Assembly (NCBI GenBank): GCA_021323775.1 | Contig: JAJPKK010000326.1 | Span: 1 to 64,000 of the forward strand | DNA: 64,000 nt | From: Hyphomicrobiales bacterium | Lineage (GTDB): Bacteria; Pseudomonadota; Alphaproteobacteria; Rhizobiales; Xanthobacteraceae | Reading direction: 5' to 3' | In this document: piece by piece, positions 12,063-51,498 of the stretch | Position numbering within the stretch: position 1 is the first letter of the stretch | Layout: every line of letters starts with the position of its first letter | The notes under the pieces: generated by a model | What the model saw: only the letters and a program-made list of their open reading frames with translations | Database searches by the model: none | Told to the model about the DNA's origin: nothing | Program-made: the position numbers and the translations under genes

Positions 12063-14339
12063 GCGACGGGACCCCAAGTCGGCCGCAGCCTGCCTCGGCT
12101 CGAAGCACGCGAAAAGGTCACCGGCCGAGCCGAATACACTCACAACCTGCGCCTGCCCGGGATGCTGTACGGCAAGGTGGTCCGCTCGACCATCGCCCAT
12201 GGCCGCATCAGGTCGATCGACGCCAGCGCCGCCAAGGCTGTGCCGGGAGTCTATCAGGTCGTCGCCGGGGAGGACGTGATCAAGGTCATTCCCCACCCTT
12301 ATTACGGGCCGGCCTTCCATGACCAGCCGATCCTCGCCATCGGCAAAGTGCACTATGTGGGCGAGCCGATTGCGGTGGTGCTGGCGGAAGACCCCCATGT
12401 CGCTGAGACCGCGGCCACCCTCGTTGTCGCCGAATACGAAGAGCTGCCGGCCGTGTACGACGAGTTGGAAGCCGCGCAGAACAGGGTTCTGGTGCATGAT
12501 GAGCTCAAGCCCGCCGGCACCTTCGCGGACCTCAAACATCTCAAGGGCGTCAGGGGCACCAATATCGCGCTCGACTATCAATTGCGCAAAGGCGATGTCG
12601 AAAAGGCGTTCGCCGAAGCCGCCCATGTATTCGAGCACGAGTTTCGCACCCAGAAGGTGCTGCATCTCGCCTTCGAGCCGTTCGTCTCGATCGCCGACTA
12701 CAAGGGCGATCGGCTCACGCTCTACACCGCCTCGCAGGGCCCCTCCTTCGTGCGCATAGAGATCGCCCGGCTGCTCGGCTGGCCCGAGAACCGCGTGCGC
12801 GTCAAGGTGCCGTTTCTGGGCGGCGGCTATGGCGGCAAGCTCTATATCAAACTCGAGGCGCTGGTGACGGCGCTGTCGATGATCGCCAAGCGTCCCGTCA
12901 AGGTCTCCCTGCCGATGGAGGAGGTGTTCTACACCATCACCCGCCACCCGATGACGTTCCGCATCAAGAGCGGCGTCGATGAGCATGGCCGCATCACGGC
13001 GCGGCGCTGCGAAGTGTTCTGGAACGGCGGCGCCTATGCGGATATCGGCCCGCGCGTGGCGCAGAAGTCGGGATTCACGGCTTCGGGGCCCTACGACATC
13101 GAAAACGTGTCGATCGATTCCTATGCGCTCTACACCAACCAGCCGCCGGCGGGCGCACTGCGCGGCTTCGGGGTGCCGCAACTGGTCTGGGCCTATGAAT
13201 CTCACACCGACATGATGGCGCGCGCCCTCAGGATCGATCCGCTGGAATTCCGCCGCCGCAATATCACGCGCGAGGGCGGCCGGCACGCCACCGGCACGCC
13301 GCTCGAAGATGCCGCGGTCGAGAAGGTGCTGGAGCATGTTGCGGCGCGGATGAACTGGTCAAAGCCGTTCGACCGCGGCACCGGCGCAGTCCGCCGCGGC
13401 CGCGGACTTGCCATTGCGATCAAGGCCGTGATCTCGCCTACCACGTCGGTCGCGATCGTGAACGTCAACGCTGACGGCAGCACCACGCTTTATTGCGGAA
13501 CCGTCGACATGGGTCAGGGCTCCGACACTGCGATGGCGCAGATCGTGGGCGAAATTCTCAACATTCCGGCCGAATCTGTAAACGTGGTGCCTCGCGACAC
13601 CGATGTGACGCCGTACGACATGGGGACGCTCGGATCGCGGTCGCTCTTCCACATGGGACACGCCGTGAAGCGCGCCGCCGAAGAGGCGCGCGACAAGATC
13701 GCGTCGCTCGCTCGCGAGCTGGGGCTGCCGAAAGGCAGCAACTATTCGGTCGCCGACCTGTTCCAGAAAAAGTACGGCATGCAGGCCGGCAACATTGTCG
13801 GCGCTGGCGTCTACAAACCGGACTACGTTCCGCCGCAGCCGGGCACTGGGCTGACGCCCAATGTTACGCCGTTCTGGATGGTGTCGGGCGTGGGCGCAGA
13901 GGTCGAGGTGGACACCGAGACCGGCCATGTGCGCGTCACGCGGCTGCTCAACGTCTGCGACATCGGCCGTCCGATCAACCCGAAGATCTGTGAGTCGCAG
14001 ATTTCGGGCGCCGCTACGATGCAGCTCGGCTTCACTATGTTCGAGAAGATGCATTTCGACGGCGGGCAGGTCACCAACGCGTCGCTCGCGGACTACAAGA
14101 TCCCCGGCTTCCACGACTTGCCGGCGGCGTTCGAGAACGAGACCGTTGAGGCCTATCAGTCCAATGGACCGTTCGGCGGCAAGGGTGTGGGGGAGGTCGC
14201 AACCTTCTGTGTGTCGCCCGCCATCGGCAATGCGATCGACGATGCCGTCGGGGTGCGGCTCACGGAATTACCACTCAACCCGGAGGCCGTGCTGCGTGCG
14301 CTGCGCGCGAAAGAAAACCGGCCGCTCGAGGATGCGTGA
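12000..14339 (+). CDS. Molybdopterin-binding large subunit, xanthine dehydrogenase/4-hydroxybenzoyl-CoA reductase type
   Basis: A 779-residue catalytic subunit binding Mo-molybdopterin cytosine dinucleotide. The aldehyde oxidase/xanthine dehydrogenase a/b hammerhead domain is at about 40-145 and the molybdopterin-binding region follows. The active-site loop reads GALRGFG (about 384-390), the xanthine dehydrogenase or hydroxybenzoyl-CoA reductase form, not the Cys-containing loop of true CO dehydrogenase. The catalytic base Glu sits in GGKGVGE (about 724-730). The first 25 residues include a repeat-derived insert. The ATG follows the coxM stop directly. A hydroxylase or reductase of an aromatic, N-heterocyclic or purine-like compound is likely; CO oxidation is unlikely. 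Confidence 0.84.
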   Translation: MPSATMNPTPSPPALAAEGRVATGPQVGRSLPRLEAREKVTGRAEYTHNLRLPGMLYGKVVRSTIAHGRIRSIDASAAKAVPGVYQVVAGEDVIKVIPHPYYGPAFHDQPILAIGKVHYVGEPIAVVLAEDPHVAETAATLVVAEYEELPAVYDELEAAQNRVLVHDELKPAGTFADLKHLKGVRGTNIALDYQLRKGDVEKAFAEAAHVFEHEFRTQKVLHLAFEPFVSIADYKGDRLTLYTASQGPSFVRIEIARLLGWPENRVRVKVPFLGGGYGGKLYIKLEALVTALSMIAKRPVKVSLPMEEVFYTITRHPMTFRIKSGVDEHGRITARRCEVFWNGGAYADIGPRVAQKSGFTASGPYDIENVSIDSYALYTNQPPAGALRGFGVPQLVWAYESHTDMMARALRIDPLEFRRRNITREGGRHATGTPLEDAAVEKVLEHVAARMNWSKPFDRGTGAVRRGRGLAIAIKAVISPTTSVAIVNVNADGSTTLYCGTVDMGQGSDTAMAQIVGEILNIPAESVNVVPRDTDVTPYDMGTLGSRSLFHMGHAVKRAAEEARDKIASLARELGLPKGSNYSVADLFQKKYGMQAGNIVGAGVYKPDYVPPQPGTGLTPNVTPFWMVSGVGAEVEVDTETGHVRVTRLLNVCDIGRPINPKICESQISGAATMQLGFTMFEKMHFDGGQVTNASLADYKIPGFHDLPAAFENETVEAYQSNGPFGGKGVGEVATFCVSPAIGNAIDDAVGVRLTELPLNPEAVLRALRAKENRPLEDA

Positions 14340-38546: not shown

Positions 38547-38942
38547 TTGTCGGCGATGACGCCCGACCCGCTGGTCCCCGCCATCAAGACGCATCAAGCC
38601 TTGCTCGGACGCGCGCCGCATCTGGCGGCGGCGGACGCCGCGTTCTACTCCGCCAACAACGAGGCCGGCGCGAAGGCGAGAGGCGTCAAACGCGTCTGCA
38701 TTCCCAATCGCTCGACCAAAAGCCTTGAGCGCAAGCGCGAGCAGAAAAAGCGCTGGTTCCGCAACGGCCAGAAATGGCGCACCGGCTGCGAGGGCCGCAT
38801 CAGCGTCGCAAAACGGCGACATGGCCTGCGCCGCTGCCGCTACAAGGGCTTCGTCGGAATGCACCGCTGGGTCGGCCTCGGCGTCATCGCCGACAACCTC
38901 ATCAATATCGGGCGCGCCATGAAAAAGCAGGCGGCTCCTTAA
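38547..38942 (+). pseudogene. C-terminal fragment of an ISNCY-type transposase
   Basis: A 131-codon frame ending at TAA. From about residue 23 it resembles the C-terminal part of ISNCY transposases: AADAAFYSANNEAGAKARGVKR, then VCIPNRSTKS, KRWFRNGQKWRTGCEGRISV and HRWVGLGVIADNLINI with the expected final helix. The catalytic N-terminal two thirds are missing, and no terminal inverted repeats or target duplication were found. An IS remnant at this point, where AT-rich DNA meets the defence genes, supports arrival of the region by transfer. Confidence 0.75.
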
Positions 38943-39215
38943 GCCGTCACGACACCATCAAGTTTGTCGCCCCGCTGACCCGACGCGGTTTTGCCTTGTC
39001 TGCGCTATTGACCACAATGCCCGCAAACATCAATTTTGCGCCGAGCTAAGCTGGACGTTGAAGGGGCGATGCCATGTCCTGCTCCAGTATTTCGTTGAAG
39101 CGCCGAAACGGCTATTCGTCCAGCCGAAAAGTAAGGATTGGACTGGAGCTCAGTTCGCAAGTTAGGGTCCATCCAGAATGCTTGGAAAGCGCGACTAAAT
39201 GAGAGCGCAAATGCA

Positions 39216-41264
39216 ATGCTTGAACTCGCAGTGACTTTCAATCGGAGTCTCGACCGGCTGACAGCAAGCGAGCAAGCGCTCGCGAAGCAGACCGTGTTCG
39301 ATTACATGACCGATCCGACACGGCCGGGACTTTCGCTTCATCGCATCGACCGCGCCCGCGACAAGCGGTTCTGGACTATCCGCTCCGGCCTCGATCTTCG
39401 GATCGTCGTTTTGAAGGAAGGAGCGCGGTCGCTCTTCTGTTACATCGGCCACCATGACGACGCTTACAAGTGGGCAGAGGGACGGCGCTTTGAAGTGCAC
39501 CCGGTGACCGGGGCTGCGCAGATTGTCGAATTCGAAGAAGTCGTCCGGAAGGAAATCCGGGTTGTCCAGCAAGAGGCCGTACGGCCAGGGCTTTTGGCAG
39601 GCGAGACGCCTGAGTATCTCCTCAGCGTCGGCGTACCTGAAAGTTTCATCGACCTCGTGCGCAGTGTCGATGAAGATGGCCTGCTCGAACTTCTTCCGCG
39701 CTTGCCCGAGGAAGCCGGGGAGGCGCTGCTCAATCTCGCAGCGGGCCATCGGCCGGTTCCTGCTACGGCGCTTGCGAAAATTCCTGCGGTCGATCCTTTT
39801 GATCATCCGGATGCGCAGCGCCGATTCTGGGTGGTCAGCGATCAGGAGCTAGTCGCTCAGGCCCTAGCGAAGCCGTGGGCCGAATGGCTGGTGTTCCTGC
39901 ATCCCTCCCAGCGGGCTGCCGTCGAGCGGAACTTCAACGGTCCCGCACGCGTGTCGGGCACAGCGGGAACGGGGAAGAGCGTTGTTGCCATGCATCGCGC
40001 GGCCCGCCTCGCGCGTGCGCCTGAAGGCGGGCGAGTGTTTCTTACAACGTTTTCGAAGGCTTTAGCGGGAAGGCTCGCGGAGGGTATGGATACGCTGCTG
40101 GGCCGGGCTTCGGATGCGCGTGCCCGTGTGGAGGTCGAGCATTTGCATGCTTATGCCCACGCTCACGCCTCGCGGCTCGAAAGGCCAGGGATTGCAGATG
40201 GTCCAACCATCGACGCCCTGATCAGAGCGGCGCGCGGGAATCTTGACACCGCTTTCGATCATGACTTTCTTCGCGCGGAATGGGACGCCGTCATCGACTT
40301 CTGGGGCGTTTCCTCATTTGAGGACTACCGCAATATTCCGCGTGGCGGCCGGGGCGCCGCATTGCCGGTGGCAGTGCGCCGTCGCTTGTGGGATGTCTTC
40401 AGCGCGGTGCGGCAAGGCCTTGCGTCACGCAACCTTCTTACGTTCGGCGACATCTGCGACGTGCTGCGGCAGCGTATTGAAAGGGATGGAACGCGGCCGT
40501 TCCGTCATGTCATCGTCGATGAAGCCCAGGATTTCGGGCCCCGTGAGATGAAGCTGGCCGCCTCGCTCGCGCCGCCTGGATCCGTGTTCTTTGCCGGCGA
40601 TGTCGGCCAGCGCATCTTCCGGTGGCCGTTTTCCTGGACGGCGGCCGGCATTGATGTCCGTGGCCGCTCCCTGCGCCTCAAAGTGAACTATCGCACGAGC
40701 GCAGAGATTCGCCGCTTTTCGGACCGCTTGCTGAAGGCCCGCATCACCGATGTGGACAACGAGATCGATGACCGCCAGACCTCATCCCCGCTGCATGGAC
40801 CGGATCCGGAAATCAAATCGGCTCCTGATCTCGCTGGCGAGATCGATCTTCTGGTGAACTGGCTCACGGCGCTGCGGGAGCAGGGGACGGCGCCCGGTGA
40901 AATCGCCATTTTTGCCCGAACCAGGAAGGCCCTTGAGCAGAGGGCGTTGCCCGCGCTGAGGCGCTGTGCGCTTTCAGGCGCTTGGCTTTCGCCGGATCAG
41001 AAGGTGGTAACGGGGCACGTCAACCTCGGCACGCTCCACGCAGCGAAAGGACTGGAGTTTCGCGCCGTAGCCGTGGTCGCGTGCGACGATTCGCAGCTTC
41101 CGCTGCGCGTCGCCATGGGCATGGCGAGAGATCAGGATGCCAAGCAGATCGTGGAGCAGCGTGAATTGAGCCTTCTCTATGTCGGCTGTACGCGGGCCCG
41201 CGAGCGCTTGCTCGTGACCTGGTCGGGGCAGCCCTCCCGGTTTCTGGAGAGCAAGTCGGCCTGA
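39216..41264 (+). CDS. RelE-like domain fused to a UvrD-type superfamily 1 helicase
   Basis: A 682-residue protein. Residues about 1-90 look like a RelE/ParE-fold domain (LHRIDRARDKRFWTIRSG, DLRIVVLK, LFCYIGHHDDAYKWAEGRR). The rest is an SF1 helicase: Walker A SGTAGTGKSVVA (about 246-257), motif II IVDEAQDF (about 430-437), motif III GDVGQRIF, UvrD C-terminal motifs (NYRTSAEIRRFSDRL; TLHAAKGLEFRAV; LYVGCTRARERLLVTW near 652-667). It is convergent with zorD, 21 bases apart. Such fusions occur in accessory regions; whether the RelE part cuts RNA is unknown. ATG 39216 is chosen because the RelE-like domain starts there; a longer frame begins at 39138. Role in phage defence is inferred from context. 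Confidence 0.75.
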   Translation: MLELAVTFNRSLDRLTASEQALAKQTVFDYMTDPTRPGLSLHRIDRARDKRFWTIRSGLDLRIVVLKEGARSLFCYIGHHDDAYKWAEGRRFEVHPVTGAAQIVEFEEVVRKEIRVVQQEAVRPGLLAGETPEYLLSVGVPESFIDLVRSVDEDGLLELLPRLPEEAGEALLNLAAGHRPVPATALAKIPAVDPFDHPDAQRRFWVVSDQELVAQALAKPWAEWLVFLHPSQRAAVERNFNGPARVSGTAGTGKSVVAMHRAARLARAPEGGRVFLTTFSKALAGRLAEGMDTLLGRASDARARVEVEHLHAYAHAHASRLERPGIADGPTIDALIRAARGNLDTAFDHDFLRAEWDAVIDFWGVSSFEDYRNIPRGGRGAALPVAVRRRLWDVFSAVRQGLASRNLLTFGDICDVLRQRIERDGTRPFRHVIVDEAQDFGPREMKLAASLAPPGSVFFAGDVGQRIFRWPFSWTAAGIDVRGRSLRLKVNYRTSAEIRRFSDRLLKARITDVDNEIDDRQTSSPLHGPDPEIKSAPDLAGEIDLLVNWLTALREQGTAPGEIAIFARTRKALEQRALPALRRCALSGAWLSPDQKVVTGHVNLGTLHAAKGLEFRAVAVVACDDSQLPLRVAMGMARDQDAKQIVEQRELSLLYVGCTRARERLLVTWSGQPSRFLESKSA

Positions 41265-44262: not shown

Positions 44263-45654
44263 TCAGGGAGCCCGGTAGTCCGACGGCTGGACGCGGACGC
44301 CGATCAGTTGGTAGAGCCGCTCGGCGACACGATTCTGCCAAATGTAGGTGTCCGCGCCTACGTGGGTAAACATGTCGTTCTTGTTTAGATTGGGTTCGGT
44401 ACGGTCGTTCTTCGGCAACGGACGCATGATCTCATCAGTCGTGTAGTAAGGGGCGTTGAGTTTCGGGCAATTCCGGTCTGATTTCTTCCAGATGTTACAA
44501 CGTCCATTGTGGCTCCAATCGGCGACGATGCATTCGCCGAAGTCCAGCAACAGGACGGCATGTCCAGGCTCAATTTGTCTTCTGCCGCCGGATCTAAACC
44601 TTCCGAAGGGGACATCCTTTCCGAACGCTCGCCTCGCCTCCACGGCTCCTTCATCGCCGAAGATGACCCAGGCGTTCTGCAGCAGCTCTTTCTCATGGTA
44701 GGCCTGCCAGAAAGCCCGCCGGTATTTCCACATGTGGTCGGGCGCGATTTTGTCCACCACGTCCAAAAACTGCCGCAGGGATTGCTCGATTAACCAGCGC
44801 CGCAAGATATCCACGACGTCGTCCAGTCCGATCCATTCGCCTCCGGATATGCGCGGATCCCCGAACCGGGCGATCAGGAAATTCAATATCTCGTTGCGCT
44901 CTGCCAGAGCGGGAATTCGTTCCCCGAACGGCAGCACGACGGCGCGGGCCAGCTGCCCCTTGCAACGTTTGAAGATCAGACGTTCCTCATCGAGCGACCA
45001 TCGTCTGACGGTGTCGATGCGTTCCACCGCGGTGTGCACCGGCGTGCTGCGCAGGATTTCAAGGCCCTTGTCGTGGACCGCTTCCGCGAAGCCAGCCTCC
45101 AGGAGCATCCCCCTGACCCCCGCCGGCTTCAAAAGGCCTTGGATGTTCGTCTGTTCTTTCAGCGCGAGGCGGGCAATCCGCCCGACCGCCTCGGCGCCGG
45201 TGAAGAGGGCGTATCTGGCCTGCAGTTTATCCCATGGCTCGCCGGCAGCGGACGCAAAGTCGCGCAGCACGCCGCTGATCTGTGCAAGCTTCGGGCGGTC
45301 AATTGCGAAGTCGGTGAGATATGCCGAGGCAAGCTGGCGGTAGGGACGCCTCTTCTTGTTACGGACCATGTCGACGACGCGATTGAGCATTGCGTCCAGG
45401 GCCCTATCGTCTTCAGCGACGGCGGGTTTGGTTGTCCACAGGCACCAGGCGATCCTGTTCCAGTCCCGCAAGCTCGGCTGCGTTCCGCGCCTGATGCACG
45501 CGATGAAGTTTCCGGCGACGCTGTCAAGATCCACATGCGGTCTTTCAATCGGAGCGACGGGAGGCAGGCTGCGGGCGAGCCGCGCCGTCGTCCCCTGTTC
45601 CGGCATCGGCCGGGCGCGCAAACTCAATCGCTCGACTGCGGTCAGAAAGCCCAT
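44263..45654 (-). CDS. zorC: ZorC, EH-signature protein of type I Zorya
   Basis: A 463-residue helical protein with no enzyme motifs that I recognise, matching ZorC by length, gene order and an EH-signature-like segment (LDFGECIVADWSHNGRCNIW, about 369-388). In type I Zorya, ZorC binds DNA and is required with ZorD for phage DNA cleavage. The start ATG lies one base past the zorB stop and uses the AAAGGAAA ribosome site inside zorB. The stop is one base before zorD. The order zorA-zorB-zorC-zorD is the type I signature (type II has zorE instead). Confidence 0.8.
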   Translation of the reverse strand: MGFLTAVERLSLRARPMPEQGTTARLARSLPPVAPIERPHVDLDSVAGNFIACIRRGTQPSLRDWNRIAWCLWTTKPAVAEDDRALDAMLNRVVDMVRNKKRRPYRQLASAYLTDFAIDRPKLAQISGVLRDFASAAGEPWDKLQARYALFTGAEAVGRIARLALKEQTNIQGLLKPAGVRGMLLEAGFAEAVHDKGLEILRSTPVHTAVERIDTVRRWSLDEERLIFKRCKGQLARAVVLPFGERIPALAERNEILNFLIARFGDPRISGGEWIGLDDVVDILRRWLIEQSLRQFLDVVDKIAPDHMWKYRRAFWQAYHEKELLQNAWVIFGDEGAVEARRAFGKDVPFGRFRSGGRRQIEPGHAVLLLDFGECIVADWSHNGRCNIWKKSDRNCPKLNAPYYTTDEIMRPLPKNDRTEPNLNKNDMFTHVGADTYIWQNRVAERLYQLIGVRVQPSDYRAP

Positions 45655-45655
45655 C

Positions 45656-46525
45656 TCAGGGAGTTTCCTTTAATTTCTCGATCTCTATTCTCATCTGCTG
45701 GAGGAGTCTCTGCATCTCCTCAAGATCGGCAGTCGGGTCCGTGTCCATGACGAATCGCAGATCAATCCTTCGATTCTTCTGCCGGGCGTCCGGAGTGTTT
45801 CCCGTATCAAGTGGACGCGTAGATGAATAACCGGAGATCGACAGGATCTCCTGATCGCTGCGGTTGTGAAGGCGGCGCAATAAGGGAGCTCTGAACGTAA
45901 GCTCACGATATGTGTTTGCCGCTCGTTGAACTGATAATACCCAGTTCTGGTCATCCGGCCCAATTGTGTCCGTATGCCCTTCGATGAAGACGGTTTCGAT
46001 CGATGCATTTGTTTGGTTCTGACAGCCCGTATCCAGCGAGGAAGCCTTTGTGCAAGACACGTACGCCGGCAGCACGCTCGCCAAAACAGGAGCAATTTTC
46101 TTTACTTTTTCCCTCGCGTCATTGTTGAGGTTCGCATTGCCGAAGTCAAATTTGATTGTGTCTTCAGTTAAACGAAGCACGCCGTTTAACTCATCCACTT
46201 TTACTTTCACTCCGACAGCGTCGAGCTGGTCATGCAGCTCGTAGAGCAGTTTCTGTCGCAGCCGCGTGGCTTGTCGCAGTTCGTCAAGGCGTTCGCTGAT
46301 ACGCTTCTCGATATCCGCCAGCTTTCGTTCAATGACGTTGGCATGCGCAATCTTGGTGTCTTGCGTCGCTTTCGTAGCGTCTGTCTGCTGCCGGAACAGG
46401 AAAGCGAAGCTCATCAACATGATGATGAAGATGAAAAGCATACCCACCATCATGTCGGTCATCGAGACGAAATAGTTCTCGCCCTCGCCGCGATCGTAGG
46501 CATCGGCGCTCTCTGCAATCGCCAT
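45656..46525 (-). CDS. zorB: ZorB, MotB/OmpA-like peptidoglycan-anchored stator subunit
   Basis: A 289-residue inner-membrane protein. One transmembrane helix (about 25-46, VGMLFIFIIMLMSFAFLF) is preceded by the proton-path Asp24 in SMTDMMVG, as in MotB-type stators. A coiled linker (about 50-110) leads to an OmpA-like peptidoglycan-binding domain (IKFDFGNANLNNDA, VFIEGHTDTIG, QKNRRIDLRF). With ZorA it forms a proton-driven motor that spans the envelope and signals phage attack. Sixteen bases separate it from zorA. Family-normal length. Confidence 0.88.
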   Translation of the reverse strand: MAIAESADAYDRGEGENYFVSMTDMMVGMLFIFIIMLMSFAFLFRQQTDATKATQDTKIAHANVIERKLADIEKRISERLDELRQATRLRQKLLYELHDQLDAVGVKVKVDELNGVLRLTEDTIKFDFGNANLNNDAREKVKKIAPVLASVLPAYVSCTKASSLDTGCQNQTNASIETVFIEGHTDTIGPDDQNWVLSVQRAANTYRELTFRAPLLRRLHNRSDQEILSISGYSSTRPLDTGNTPDARQKNRRIDLRFVMDTDPTADLEEMQRLLQQMRIEIEKLKETP

Positions 46526-46541: not shown

Positions 46542-48623
46542 TCAGCGGGGGCGCGGGGATGCGCCGTTTGGAGACCTTCGTGGCGAACCGCCGTCTGGAG
46601 GAAACTGTCCGAGAACCTGGGTCAGGTTGTCCAAGGTCTCGTCAAGACCACTCATGGTATTGCTGATCTTGCTCAAGAACGTCCCGGTGTGTTCATCGAT
46701 CTTGATGACAAACGCTCGCATCGCCTCCTGATGGTTCGAAACCTCCTTCTGGAAACCGTCAACCGCCCTTTCGAGGGCCTCGTCGACGCGATTGAACCGG
46801 GCTTCGTAATTGGTCCACACGCGCCCGATCTGTTCCAGGTGCGCGTCAAGGCGCTCGGCGATGCCGCTGGCCTTCTGTTGGGTCGTCGATAGCGCGCCTA
46901 CCGAGCTTTCGATCGATTTCGTCATCTTGTCCGCTGAGTGGGCGACCCGTTCAGACGAAGCGACGATCGGCTGGCTCGCGGCGCGGGCGCTGGCAGCGAC
47001 CTGGCTGAAAGCCTCGGCCGTCTCGCGCGACCGTCTGCTGACTCCGTCGATGTGCTGGGTCTGCGCCCGGAAGGCGCTTTCTACGGATTGGAGCGTCGCT
47101 GCAAGCCGGCCAATATCGGCGCTCAGGTTTTGTGTTACTTCGCCAATGGCATTTCGCATGGCCTCCACTGCGTCGTGCGTCGCCTTCTGCGTCGCCGCAA
47201 CCACCTCGTCAGCCGCGCGCTTGCTCGCGTCGGCGGCCGCCTCTCCGGCTTTCCGCGCGATCGTCCCGCTTTTCTCCATTTGCTCGGCCACGGCGAGCTG
47301 CAGCGCAGCCATACTCTCCGCAAAGGTCGCGTTTTGAGATTCAAGCTTCCCGACCAGCCGCTCCATCGCGCTATCGAGAGTTCCGGCCGCGCCGGTTGCA
47401 GAATGACCAAGCGCGGCGCCCGCGTCGGCGATGATGCGGCCCAGGTTCTCCGCAGCGATGGCTAGCTTGTCCGACACGTCCCGCCCGGAGCCGGCGAGGC
47501 TCTCCCTTATGACTTCGAGGCCCGTCTGCAGGCTGGTCAGCGTCTCGATAACTTTCCCAAGCTCCTGTCCGGCTCCTTGATCGAGCTTGCCTATGAACCG
47601 GTTGATCAAGTCTTCGACGCCGGTTTGCGACGTTTGCGTCAGCGCGTTCATCGTCTCTTTGAGGCTGGTGGAGACGGGGCTGATCGCCTCCGCGACTGCG
47701 GTCTGAAAACGAGGAGCAATCGAGTCGCCGAGGCGCGCAAAGAAGGCCTCGCTGTTGATCTCCTTGAGTTGGTCGCGCTGGGCCGCGAGCAAATCCAGGG
47801 ACTCGGCAGCAATCCGCTGTGGCGGCTGGAACTGCAAGCGATCGCCGAGTGCACGGCCGAAACGGTCGAACGCGCCTTCAATCAGAATCTGGTAGACGCG
47901 GAAAAGCAGCGACAGCGCCAGCGAGGCGCCGAGACCGGCGATCGACGTCGCGAACTTGAAGGTGGCGGCGTTGAGGAGCTCGCCCAGGGACTGTTTCATG
48001 GCGTCTGCGGACGCCGCGTTCGTGCCGCCCGCCGCCTTGTGGAGCGCCAGCACCAGCCCGATGAATGTCAGGAGCAGGCCGAGGCCGACGAAAAAGCCGG
48101 GGATCGAGGGCATCATCTTGAGGCCGAACAGCCGTTCGCGGGCATGCGCGAGATTGATGAAACTCTGGGGACGAACGGTGTTCTGTACGACCTTCTGCTC
48201 GTCGTCGCGAAGGAGGGTCCTTGAGAACTCCCGCCACGCAGGTCCGATGAGGGCGTGCCGGCGGAGCTTCTGGGAGACGCCATCAAACGCCGTGGCGAAA
48301 GACCGGGGATCGTCAGCCGGCCCCAAAGCGTGTCTTGCCACCCATAACGCCGCGTGAATCAACAGGACATGGGCGACCAGAAAGGCAACGGCGAGCGCGA
48401 GGCCAAACTGGACGATCGCGGACGCGAGGGCGAATGCGAATCCCTCTTGCGTGACAAGTTCGAGGAGGTTTTGCCGGTTCGCCTTGAAGACGCCTGATAA
48501 CAGTTGCCAGTCGGAAAAGGGCAACACGGGAGCGAGAGCAAAAAGAGCGCCCCAAACCAGGATCCAGAACAGCGGAAGGCGGACTGCGGCGTTCCACGTC
48601 CAATTGGCAGCAAAGAGGCTCAT
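46542..48623 (-). CDS. zorA: ZorA, MotA/ExbB-like stator with long tail
   Basis: A 693-residue protein. The N-terminal 240 residues contain about four hydrophobic segments (LPLFWILVWGALFALAP; FALASAIVQFGLALAVAFLV; PSIPGFFVGLGLLLTFIGL; TSIAGLGASLALSLLF), the MotA/TolQ/ExbB channel fold. The remaining 430 residues form a long predicted coiled coil rich in Ala, Glu, Lys and Gln, the intracellular tail that is typical of ZorA and needed to pass the signal. ATG 48623 (MSLFAANWTWN) follows GGGGATGAG; a longer frame to 48818 has no support. First gene of the operon; transcription probably starts near 48900, leaving a long leader. Confidence 0.86.
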   Translation of the reverse strand: MSLFAANWTWNAAVRLPLFWILVWGALFALAPVLPFSDWQLLSGVFKANRQNLLELVTQEGFAFALASAIVQFGLALAVAFLVAHVLLIHAALWVARHALGPADDPRSFATAFDGVSQKLRRHALIGPAWREFSRTLLRDDEQKVVQNTVRPQSFINLAHARERLFGLKMMPSIPGFFVGLGLLLTFIGLVLALHKAAGGTNAASADAMKQSLGELLNAATFKFATSIAGLGASLALSLLFRVYQILIEGAFDRFGRALGDRLQFQPPQRIAAESLDLLAAQRDQLKEINSEAFFARLGDSIAPRFQTAVAEAISPVSTSLKETMNALTQTSQTGVEDLINRFIGKLDQGAGQELGKVIETLTSLQTGLEVIRESLAGSGRDVSDKLAIAAENLGRIIADAGAALGHSATGAAGTLDSAMERLVGKLESQNATFAESMAALQLAVAEQMEKSGTIARKAGEAAADASKRAADEVVAATQKATHDAVEAMRNAIGEVTQNLSADIGRLAATLQSVESAFRAQTQHIDGVSRRSRETAEAFSQVAASARAASQPIVASSERVAHSADKMTKSIESSVGALSTTQQKASGIAERLDAHLEQIGRVWTNYEARFNRVDEALERAVDGFQKEVSNHQEAMRAFVIKIDEHTGTFLSKISNTMSGLDETLDNLTQVLGQFPPDGGSPRRSPNGASPRPR

Positions 48624-49071: not shown

Positions 49072-49560
49072 CTATCCAAATTCGAGAATGACTGGCGATC
49101 CAAGCTGTTCGGCCATGCGGACGCGAACAGCTGCACGCTTGATCTCCGTCGCCTGCTTTTGTGGCGGCTGCCGAAAATCGTGGCGCACGAGCCCCTCGGT
49201 ACGCCATGCGCCGAATCCCTGGTCCAAAAGGATCGTCAGGCAACCTCCGCCCCTCGATGAGCAATGAGCCGCGCCATTGCGCCCGCTTGGAGCCCGGCCA
49301 TGAGGTGAGGGGTGCCGCATTCGGCGCAAACGAGGATTTCAAAGGCCGGGGCGCCGCAGGCGCAATGGTCCCGCTGCGCGAGCCACAGAGCGCCAAATTC
49401 CCAGCCCGCATCCGCAGTCGCCAGCTCTGCATCCCGGTGCGGACAAGCGGGATCGATGCAGGCCCACAATCCGCCTTGCGCACGCAGGAATAGATGGGCG
49501 CGCCAGGGTAGAAGATGCAGGCCTGTCTGCGGACACCGGGCGAGCGCTGCGGCGTCGAGA
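49072..49560 (-). pseudogene. Fragments of a large DEAD/DEAH-type helicase gene
   Basis: Two minus-strand frames joined near 49240. The upstream one (about 49560-49236) reads HLLPWRAHLF, then LRAQGGLWACID, PACPHRD, HCACGAPAFEILVCAECGTPHL: the linked Cys clusters of the zinc-binding region found in big helicases with a DUF1998/MZB part (as in BrxHII, DrmA/DrmB and DruE-type proteins). The downstream frame (to 49072) has LLDQGFGAWRTEG and QATEIKRAAVRVRMAEQ, ending ILEFG. It covers a small part of a protein of about 1000-2000 residues. Which helicase family it came from is not certain. Confidence 0.55.
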
Positions 49561-50339
49561 AGCGTCTGCGCATTTATCAGGAGCGCGCACCGCGCAACGC
49601 GGTCTATGACAAGTACGCCAAGCGCTACGTGGCGACCGATATGTTCAAGCCGATTTTTCTCAAGCCTGATCCCGATGGCTATCTCTCGCGGCTGCGGTCC
49701 CTGTCTGAAGGGCTGGCAGAGCGGTCAGAGTCGTGGATTGCGCAGCCGCCGGACGCCGACATTGCGGTGACGCCCCGCCGTGCCGTGGACCCGCCGGTGC
49801 TTAAGGCGGTCCTCACGGCCGTGCGGGAGAAGCGATCGGTCGAAGTGTATTATCAGTCGTTGAGCAAGGAGCGCCCTAAGCCGATCTGGCGGCGGATGAC
49901 GCCGCATGCCTTCGGCTATGACGGCTTCCGCTGGCACGTGCGGGCCTTTTGCCACCTCGATCGGAGCTTCAACGACTTCCTCCTGCCCCGTATCTTGGGG
50001 GCCCGGGATATGGGTGATTCCGGCCCGGGGGCGGAGCATGATGTGCTGTGGCAGGAAACGTTTGACGTGGAGATTGGCCCGCACCCGGAGCTGACGGAAA
50101 GCCAGAAGGCCGTCGTTGCCAAGGATTACGGCATGGTGGGCGGCCGGGCGGTCCTCAGGGTTCGCTACGCGATGCTGTTCTATGTGCTTAAGCGCCTCGG
50201 TCTGCTGGGCAACGCGGTGAAGCAGAATCCACGCACGCAGCACATCGTGGCGTTGAACGCGAAGGAGACAGCACGGGCATTGAAACGCGCGGAAACGGAG
50301 TCGCAACAGCCTTTGCCGTCAGCACGAAGAGTCTCCTGA
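49515..50339 (+). CDS. WYL-domain regulator of BrxR/CapW type, N-terminally truncated
   Basis: A 274-residue protein matching the defence-associated BrxR/CapW family from its second segment on: IYQERAPRNAVYDKYAKRYVAT then FKPIFLKP (about 20-50), a WYL domain (about 95-170, with VEVYYQSLSKE, HAFGYDGFRWHVRAFC), and a WCX-like C-terminus. Family members begin with a winged-helix domain of about 50 residues that is missing; the frame starts where the helicase remnant ends on the other strand. The repressor probably can no longer bind its operator, or binds poorly. Its stop overlaps the next start (TGATG), the brxR-brxA arrangement of BREX. Confidence 0.72.
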   Translation: MQACLRTPGERCGVEKRLRIYQERAPRNAVYDKYAKRYVATDMFKPIFLKPDPDGYLSRLRSLSEGLAERSESWIAQPPDADIAVTPRRAVDPPVLKAVLTAVREKRSVEVYYQSLSKERPKPIWRRMTPHAFGYDGFRWHVRAFCHLDRSFNDFLLPRILGARDMGDSGPGAEHDVLWQETFDVEIGPHPELTESQKAVVAKDYGMVGGRAVLRVRYAMLFYVLKRLGLLGNAVKQNPRTQHIVALNAKETARALKRAETESQQPLPSARRVS

Positions 50340-50576
50340 TGGACGCGGCGCCACATCGCCCATCTCTCATGTCGTTCGGCGCTGGCGGGCTGTTCGTCAA
50401 CGAGAGCGTTGCAGTCGCGAAGCTCCATTATGCGGGAGGGGATTGGAATGTGACGGCGGCAAAGGCGGTTGAGGCCCGGGCATTTCCGGTCCGCAAGGCA
50501 AGCTCGGCGCGCCGCACAATCCGCGAGATCGTCAACCGTTTGAAATGGCTTTCGGATGATGAGCTTGAGCCGTCAG
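50339..50576 (+). pseudogene. brxA: 5' fragment of brxA (DUF1819)
   Basis: About 80 codons resembling the N-terminus of BrxA, a small DNA-binding component of BREX phage resistance: MSFGAGGLFVNESVAVAKL, then GDWNVTAAKAVEARAF, RKASSARRTIREIVNRLKWL and SDDELE. ATG 50339 overlaps the regulator stop by one base. After DDELEP the frame continues into unrelated sequence, while the brxC-like frame takes over, so a deletion joined the two. The normal protein is about 200 residues. Confidence 0.7.
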
Positions 50577-50742
50577 GCGCAGACCGAAGCCCTGTCGCCG
50601 GGCCTCGCCCGGATCATCAACGACAAGCGCGATCAGGCCGCAAGCCGCCAGCGCGATCTCACCCTCAAGGTCAAAGCCCTGCTGTCCGAGGCGCGGTTGT
50701 TCGTCCGCGGCGCTGAAATCGAAATCCGCTCCGAGGACGCAC
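50577..50742 (+). pseudogene. brxC: Short internal fragment resembling brxC
   Basis: In the frame one step from brxA, the sequence reads SPGLARIINDKRDQAASRQRD and then LTLKVKALLSEARLFVRG, AEIEIRSEDA, which looks like an internal helical segment of BrxC, the large ATPase of BREX (about 1200 residues). It is cut on the left by the brxA junction and on the right by the tandem repeats starting at 50747. The brxB gene, normally between brxA and brxC, is gone. Assignment by recognition only. Confidence 0.5.
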
Positions 50743-50746
50743 AGGC

Positions 50747-51498
50747 TTGCCCTCGGCGAACCGCGGCGAGGTCCGGCCGCGTGGGCAAACGCGGAGCGAC
50801 GCCGTGCCAGAGTTTCAACATCCGGGCCGCGTTTGCCCACCCTACGAAGCTGCCCTGAAACACCGTAGGTGGGGCAACGGCGGCCGATGCGCCGCATTCC
50901 GGCACGACGATGCGCCGCCGTTGCCCACGCGGTCCGAGGTTGCCCTCGGCGAACCGCGGCGAGGTCCGGCCGCGTGGGCAAACGCGGAGCGACGCCGTGC
51001 CAGAATTTCAACATCCGGGCCGCGTTTGCCCACCCTACGAAGCTGCCCTGAAACACCGTAGGGTGGGCAACGGCGGCCGATGCGCCGCATTCCGGCACGG
51101 CGATGCGCCGCCGTTGCCCACGCGGTCCGAGGTTGCCCTCGGCGAACCGCGGCGAGGCCCGACAGCGTGGGCAAACGCGGATCGCCGCCGTGCCGGATTT
51201 TCACCGCCTCGGCCGCATTTGCCCACCCTACGAGACACCGTAGGGTGGGCAACGGCGGCCCCGGCGCTTCATCTTGGCGCGGCGCAGGAGCCGCCGTTGC
51301 CCACGCGGTCCGCCCGTGCGCACGGCGAACCGCGGCGAGGCCCGACAGCGTGGGCAAACGCGGATCGACGCCGTGCTGGATTTTCACCGCCTCGGCCGCG
51401 TTTGCCCACCCTACGAGACACCGTAGGGTGGGCAACGGCGGCCCCGGCGCTTCATCGGGGCGCGGCGCAAGACCCGCCGTTGCCCACGCGGTCCGAGG
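50747..51498. repeat. Four tandem palindromic units (193, 193, 183, 183 bp)
   Basis: Copies start at 50747, 50940, 51133 and 51316. The first two are nearly identical to each other, as are the last two, with about 10 bp difference in length between the pairs. Each unit contains stem arms GTGGGCAAACGCGG ... CGTTTGCCCAC, a CCCTACG ... CGTAGGG hairpin, and GTGGGCAACGGCGG ... CCGCCGTTGCCCAC. Long open frames across it on both strands are due to its composition. No spacers, so it is not a CRISPR array. Confidence 0.9.

Follow-up and report, generated by a model that had tools for sequence, protein, structure and literature searches.

The question raised by this locus is whether a few short gene pieces lying beside a Zorya system are what remains of a BREX system, as a sequence-only reading of the DNA had proposed, and whether BREX was all that was lost. 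We analysed the first 64,000 nucleotides of contig JAJPKK010000326.1 of a Hyphomicrobiales bacterium (assembly GCA_021323775.1), a stretch that we call the window. In our judgement, with a probability of about 0.88, the locus is a non-functional deletion scar left by serial deletions in an island of Zorya, Druantia, BrxR and BREX, from which Zorya was kept. What the pieces are, how they are ordered and where they end are direct observations, as is the lack of any other BrxC or PglZ; for the brx pieces the limits were set by aligning complete proteins of two rhizobial plasmids to the window. The pieces are as follows:

49072-49251, minus strand: C-terminal end of druE down to its own stop, in another frame, residue ~1974 onward of 2041 (local search)
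49263-49574, minus strand: internal piece of druE (Druantia III), residues ~394-494 of 2016 (PADLOC DruE3, E 3.4e-31)
49515-50339, plus strand: truncated brxR ORF (WYL regulator, 274 aa), of which 49560-50300 corresponds to BrxR residues 47-293 of 307
50339-50566, plus strand: 5' part of brxA (DUF1819), residues 1-76 of 205, its start lying in a TGATG shared with the brxR stop
50567-50570, plus strand: brxA/brxC deletion junction, about four bases that match neither gene when their letters are compared with intact loci
50571-50747, plus strand: internal piece of brxC (fourth domain), residues 659-717 of 1185, stop-free (alignment and profile matches)

The sequence-only reading had described a WYL regulator, followed through a TGATG overlap by a BrxA-like frame and, after a frame shift, by a BrxC-like piece, and had suggested comparing both frames with BrxA (DUF1819) and BrxC profiles. 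Each frame proved to have significant similarity. The regulator ORF matches the Pfam WYL profile (E 3.9e-10), the ATG frame at 50339 matches PF08849 (E 2.8e-10, profile positions 5-71 of 184) and PADLOC BrxA (E 8e-19), and the next piece matches PF25796, BREX_BrxC_4th (E 1.1e-11), and positions 658-716 of 1172 of PADLOC BrxC. As negative controls we used the window reversed and, separately, the window from which the scar had been excised. The BrxR, BrxA and BrxC remnants scored 374, 100 and 70 bits, whereas in the controls none of the seven Brx queries exceeded 25.8 bits; the BrxA and BrxC queries taken by themselves reached at most 25.4 bits there, and these two remnants are therefore not chance matches. 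The absence of brxB and of most of brxA and brxC, also claimed from the letters, is borne out, and pglX, pglZ and brxL are likewise missing from the locus; a search of the window found no BrxB, PglX or BrxL. The scar region gave no Rfam family and the window no tRNA.

Two details of the earlier description shift slightly. The BrxA start is indeed kept, but alignment to intact homologues gives 76 codons rather than 80, and the junction exists at 50567-50570 rather than near 50576, since the BrxA match ends at 50566 and the BrxC match begins at 50571; the ORF of the brxA remnant continues out of frame to 50716. We set the junction letters against ten intact loci of other genomes. In intact brxA, AGCGCTC follows GATGATGAGCT (as in locus L077), and in intact brxC, TATGTC or a similar string precedes CGTCAGGCGC. 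The relic reads GATGATGAGCTTGAGCCGTCAGGCGC, in which about four bases come from neither side; the junction bases hold a TGAGC identical to the one next to it, which may be templated filler. Compared with these ten loci, among which the parent sequence is not represented, no microhomology is evident. This, together with the filler of about four bases, suggests that brxA and brxC were joined by illegitimate end joining rather than by homologous recombination.

The regulator is itself damaged. Over 247 residues (47-293) the remnant is 72-75% identical to its homologues, and it retains the WYL and C-terminal domains that mark the BrxR family. Residues 1-46 are absent, and with them helices 1-2 and the greater part of the recognition helix, so that no complete winged helix-turn-helix is present. 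Where homologues have ...VSVPQASKDLTLYQERAP, the remnant has unrelated sequence; upstream of 49560 no BrxR similarity was found. In the solved BrxR the winged helix-turn-helix spans residues 1-94 (PMC9122601), and because homology starts only at residue 47, half of this domain has been cut off. With the published family (PMC9122601, PMC9122589) the remnant thus shares the WYL domain, the C-terminal part and the place before brxA, but it lacks the first half of the winged domain (residues 1-46 of ~94). BrxR homologues are described as accompanying many systems in a paper that does not mention Druantia (PMC9122601). We found related regulators before BREX (many loci), before Zorya (L026) and before Druantia III (L061), in line with that association.

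Losses are not confined to BREX. On the minus strand, 49574-49263 encodes ~103 residues. They align at 56% identity with residues 394-494 of a protein of 2016 aa in locus L061; PADLOC calls this protein DruE3 and its neighbour DruH3. In a local search a second piece (49251-49072) matches the C-terminus of DruE from Sinorhizobium (E 4e-8) and from Rhizobium (E 9e-8); plasmid-wide the best E is 7e-5. The DruE and BrxR pieces abut head to head at ~49560-49574. Compared with Druantia type III systems, which consist of DruH and DruE (L061, L107, L109), the scar shares the internal stretch and the C-terminal end, in order, but has no druH and no helicase core, and ~90% of DruE is gone; in place of a DruH and a full DruE helicase there are only the two DruE pieces, with ~4.4 kb lost between them and DruH wholly missing (no DruH match above chance in the window). 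The remnants make no BREX and no Druantia. The Druantia III relic is newly noticed here, in addition to the BREX relic. The proposal of a BREX deletion scar stands, the BrxA and BrxC similarities being significant and in the right order and orientation; because BrxR is truncated and a DruE relic is part of it, the scar is one of several systems rather than of a single BREX deletion. The first description had left unlisted the missing BrxR residues 1-46, the minus-strand DruE relic and a repeat array at the end of the BrxC similarity.

Could the assembler have made this mosaic? Fragments might have been joined wrongly, so that the living cell holds intact BREX and Druantia, or several strains might have been mixed. 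The assembly is a draft of 353 contigs, repeats border the scar and every join falls within 1.7 kb. The missing 21 kb should then sit on other contigs, however, and the 6.07 Mb genome, scored 100% complete, holds no second BrxC piece, no PglZ and no full DruE; moreover, no join other than the repeat edge lies at a shared repeat. We consider an artefact highly improbable. As no other BrxC and no PglZ were found, BREX is dead in this genome.

What the intact locus looked like can be judged from intact relatives. The Mesorhizobium plasmid MesoLj113b2 (L020) and the Sinorhizobium plasmid pSS05631d (L021) carry brxR (WYL), brxA (DUF1819), brxB (DUF1788), brxC, pglX, pglZ and brxL in this order, and the identical brx order is seen in over ten other loci of Alphaproteobacteria. 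In MesoLj113b2 the WYL and DUF1819 genes share the same one-base TGATG overlap as at the scar. The remnants match these type I BREX loci with BrxR in one-strand order and in 58-75% residue identity to this clade, but only parts of BrxR, BrxA and BrxC are kept, and brxB, pglX, pglZ and brxL are absent. The full type I set (brxA, brxB, brxC, pglX, pglZ, brxL) is thus lacking, and descent from it is indicated by order and overlap. With L020 as yardstick, the gap from BrxA residue 76 to BrxC residue 659 amounts to 2,985 bp, and the one from BrxC residue 717 to the end of brxL to 9.6 kb. In L020 (7154-16556) and many other loci, a divergent cassette of a DEAD helicase, a UvrD helicase and a PD-(D/E)XK protein lies upstream of BrxR. 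This cassette occurs in BREX and in other contexts; PADLOC gives no match for its PD-(D/E)XK protein, and the cassette is possibly an unlisted defence module.

The mosaic was absent from all 80 fetched loci that contain BrxR, and it is therefore not a recurrent gene. At the DNA level the scar was found in no other genome among 101 searched; in the genome collection the source genus is represented by one genome only. A BrxA match occurs in just one other of the 391 family genomes (G229), accompanied by brxB and the beginning of brxC on a short stretch, and a search of plasmid DNA returned nothing beyond WYL or WYL-BrxA matches at no more than 80% identity. Two of the 80 loci do carry a broken BREX. 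In Sphingobium lactosutens DS20 (L040, ~12400-12470 onward) the brxC match stops at residue 171 and a foreign, insertion-sequence-like stretch follows, while in Sphingopyxis flava (L039, 17938) the pglX match stops at residue 830 and gives way to unrelated sequence. Like the scar, both have a truncated BREX beside a BrxR-like regulator, although theirs is intact and neither is a mosaic of several pieces. Both are broken in other ways, so loss of BREX at such loci is ordinary. Elsewhere, in Sphingomonas turrisvirgatae (L033, 9196-9565), 3% of the UvrD gene and 9% of the PD-(D/E)XK gene lie beside an intact BrxR-like regulator, likely another defence relic.

No relative with the intact three-system island was found, nor one with the scar, and the ancestor was therefore reconstructed from separate loci. 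We infer the gene order, and the number and sequence of the deletions, in this way. The minus strand of the ancestor would have carried zorDCBA and druE-druH and its plus strand brxR-brxA-brxB-brxC-pglX-pglZ-brxL, with a divergent promoter region separating druH from brxR. The present locus would then result from about four deletions. One would have removed the middle of druE (~4.4 kb); a second at least ~4.4 kb, from the 5' end of druE through druH and the promoter region to codon 46 of brxR; a third brxA codon 77 to brxC codon 658 (~3.0 kb); and a fourth the remaining brxC with pglX, pglZ and brxL (~9.6 kb), ending at the repeat array. Of the stretch concerned ~1.7 kb would be left and ~21 kb lost.

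Alternatively, the fragments may have arrived already truncated on mobile elements, which is compatible with a deletion scar and changes only where the deletions happened. Defence islands are built by transfer, and at the left edge of this one (38558-38941, plus strand) the translation, judged by eye, contains an apparent C-terminal transposase remnant. Yet BrxR, BrxA and BrxC stand in native order and orientation with their TGATG overlap, and the DruE pieces likewise follow each other as in the intact gene and run to its own stop, which makes such an arrival unlikely. Parsimony favours loss in place, although the decay could predate the arrival of the island.

The deletion scar lies next to Zorya, and the view that an intact Zorya stands beside it agrees with the gene content:

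39138-41264, plus strand: UvrD-like helicase, convergent with zorD, gene order as in Bradyrhizobium L026
41286-44261, minus strand: zorD (type I, SNF2 helicase; PADLOC ZorD1)
44263-45654, minus strand: zorC (type I, EH signature; PADLOC ZorC1)
45656-46525, minus strand: zorB (type I; PADLOC ZorB1)
46542-48623, minus strand: zorA (type I), start probably at ~48623 within an ORF that is open as far as 48818
50747-51498, plus strand: four palindromic repeats of 183-193 bp in tandem (CGTAGGGTGGGCAA... type), beginning where brxC homology ends

The best PADLOC matches are ZorA1, ZorB1, ZorC1 and ZorD1, long or full-length, and type I Zorya is complete in its gene content. It is a neighbour outside the scar and has no BrxR of its own, unlike Bradyrhizobium sp. 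CCBAU 51627 (L026, 9860-20609), where a BrxR homologue directly precedes zorABCD and a convergent UvrD-like helicase follows. On the other side, the repeat array, with its CGTAGGGTGGGCAA motif, has no Rfam match, and related, weaker copies occur on several other contigs. Past the array, the order patatin, CBS, rhomboid is kept in 10 of the 12 relatives checked, and the island therefore sits to the left of a core block.

Another question regards the age of the scar. The 557 codons of the five remnants run without an internal stop. If 3.3% of substitutions create stops, and assuming neutrality, at most ~0.054 substitutions per site (95% bound) have accumulated since inactivation. Inactivation is therefore recent in substitution terms, or the pieces were constrained until recently. 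Private changes at codon positions 1, 2 and 3 amount to 0.12, 0.10 and 0.30 for the relic overall; the relic forms a long branch, so these rates do not separate old divergence from decay. The BrxC piece has 20 private changes at about equal rates in the three positions, and relative to BrxA it is conserved less well than BrxC is in intact pairs. This weakly suggests relaxed constraint, a sign opposite to the recency indicated by the stop-free frames, and the two are not reconciled.

As a counterpoint to the deletion scar, undamaged frames and 72-75% identity in BrxR would also fit retention under selection. The locus might be a remodelled, functional mini-locus, in which the truncated BrxR modulates Zorya as a WYL sensor or dimer partner and the BrxA and BrxC pieces are passengers. 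BrxR would then have been domesticated on Zorya after BREX and Druantia were purged, perhaps forming mixed dimers or binding an infection ligand. Its 274-aa frame is open and well conserved, a homologue precedes Zorya in L026 and regulators of the family occur with many systems (PMC9122601). Against this, the recognition helix is mostly gone, as are helices 1-2 and the upstream promoter region, and the changes in the BrxC piece point weakly the other way; both the mini-locus and the domesticated sensor seem to us very unlikely.

We therefore regard the deletion scar as a well-preserved case of a known process, genome decay, and not as a new system: the type of decay is ordinary, its record unusually clear. 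For annotation it carries a warning, in that matches to BrxA, BrxC, BrxR or DruE in such loci do not amount to an active system. Druantia III is reported to aid Zorya II and to occur in association with it (PMC13192584); that Druantia was lost here while the neighbouring Zorya I stayed adds a small data point on the pairing of Druantia III with Zorya. Finally, that a defence system has been lost is usually concluded from its absence, whereas here the ends of the deletions are preserved for two systems, with a third surviving beside them, making the scar a readable case of turnover within a defence island.
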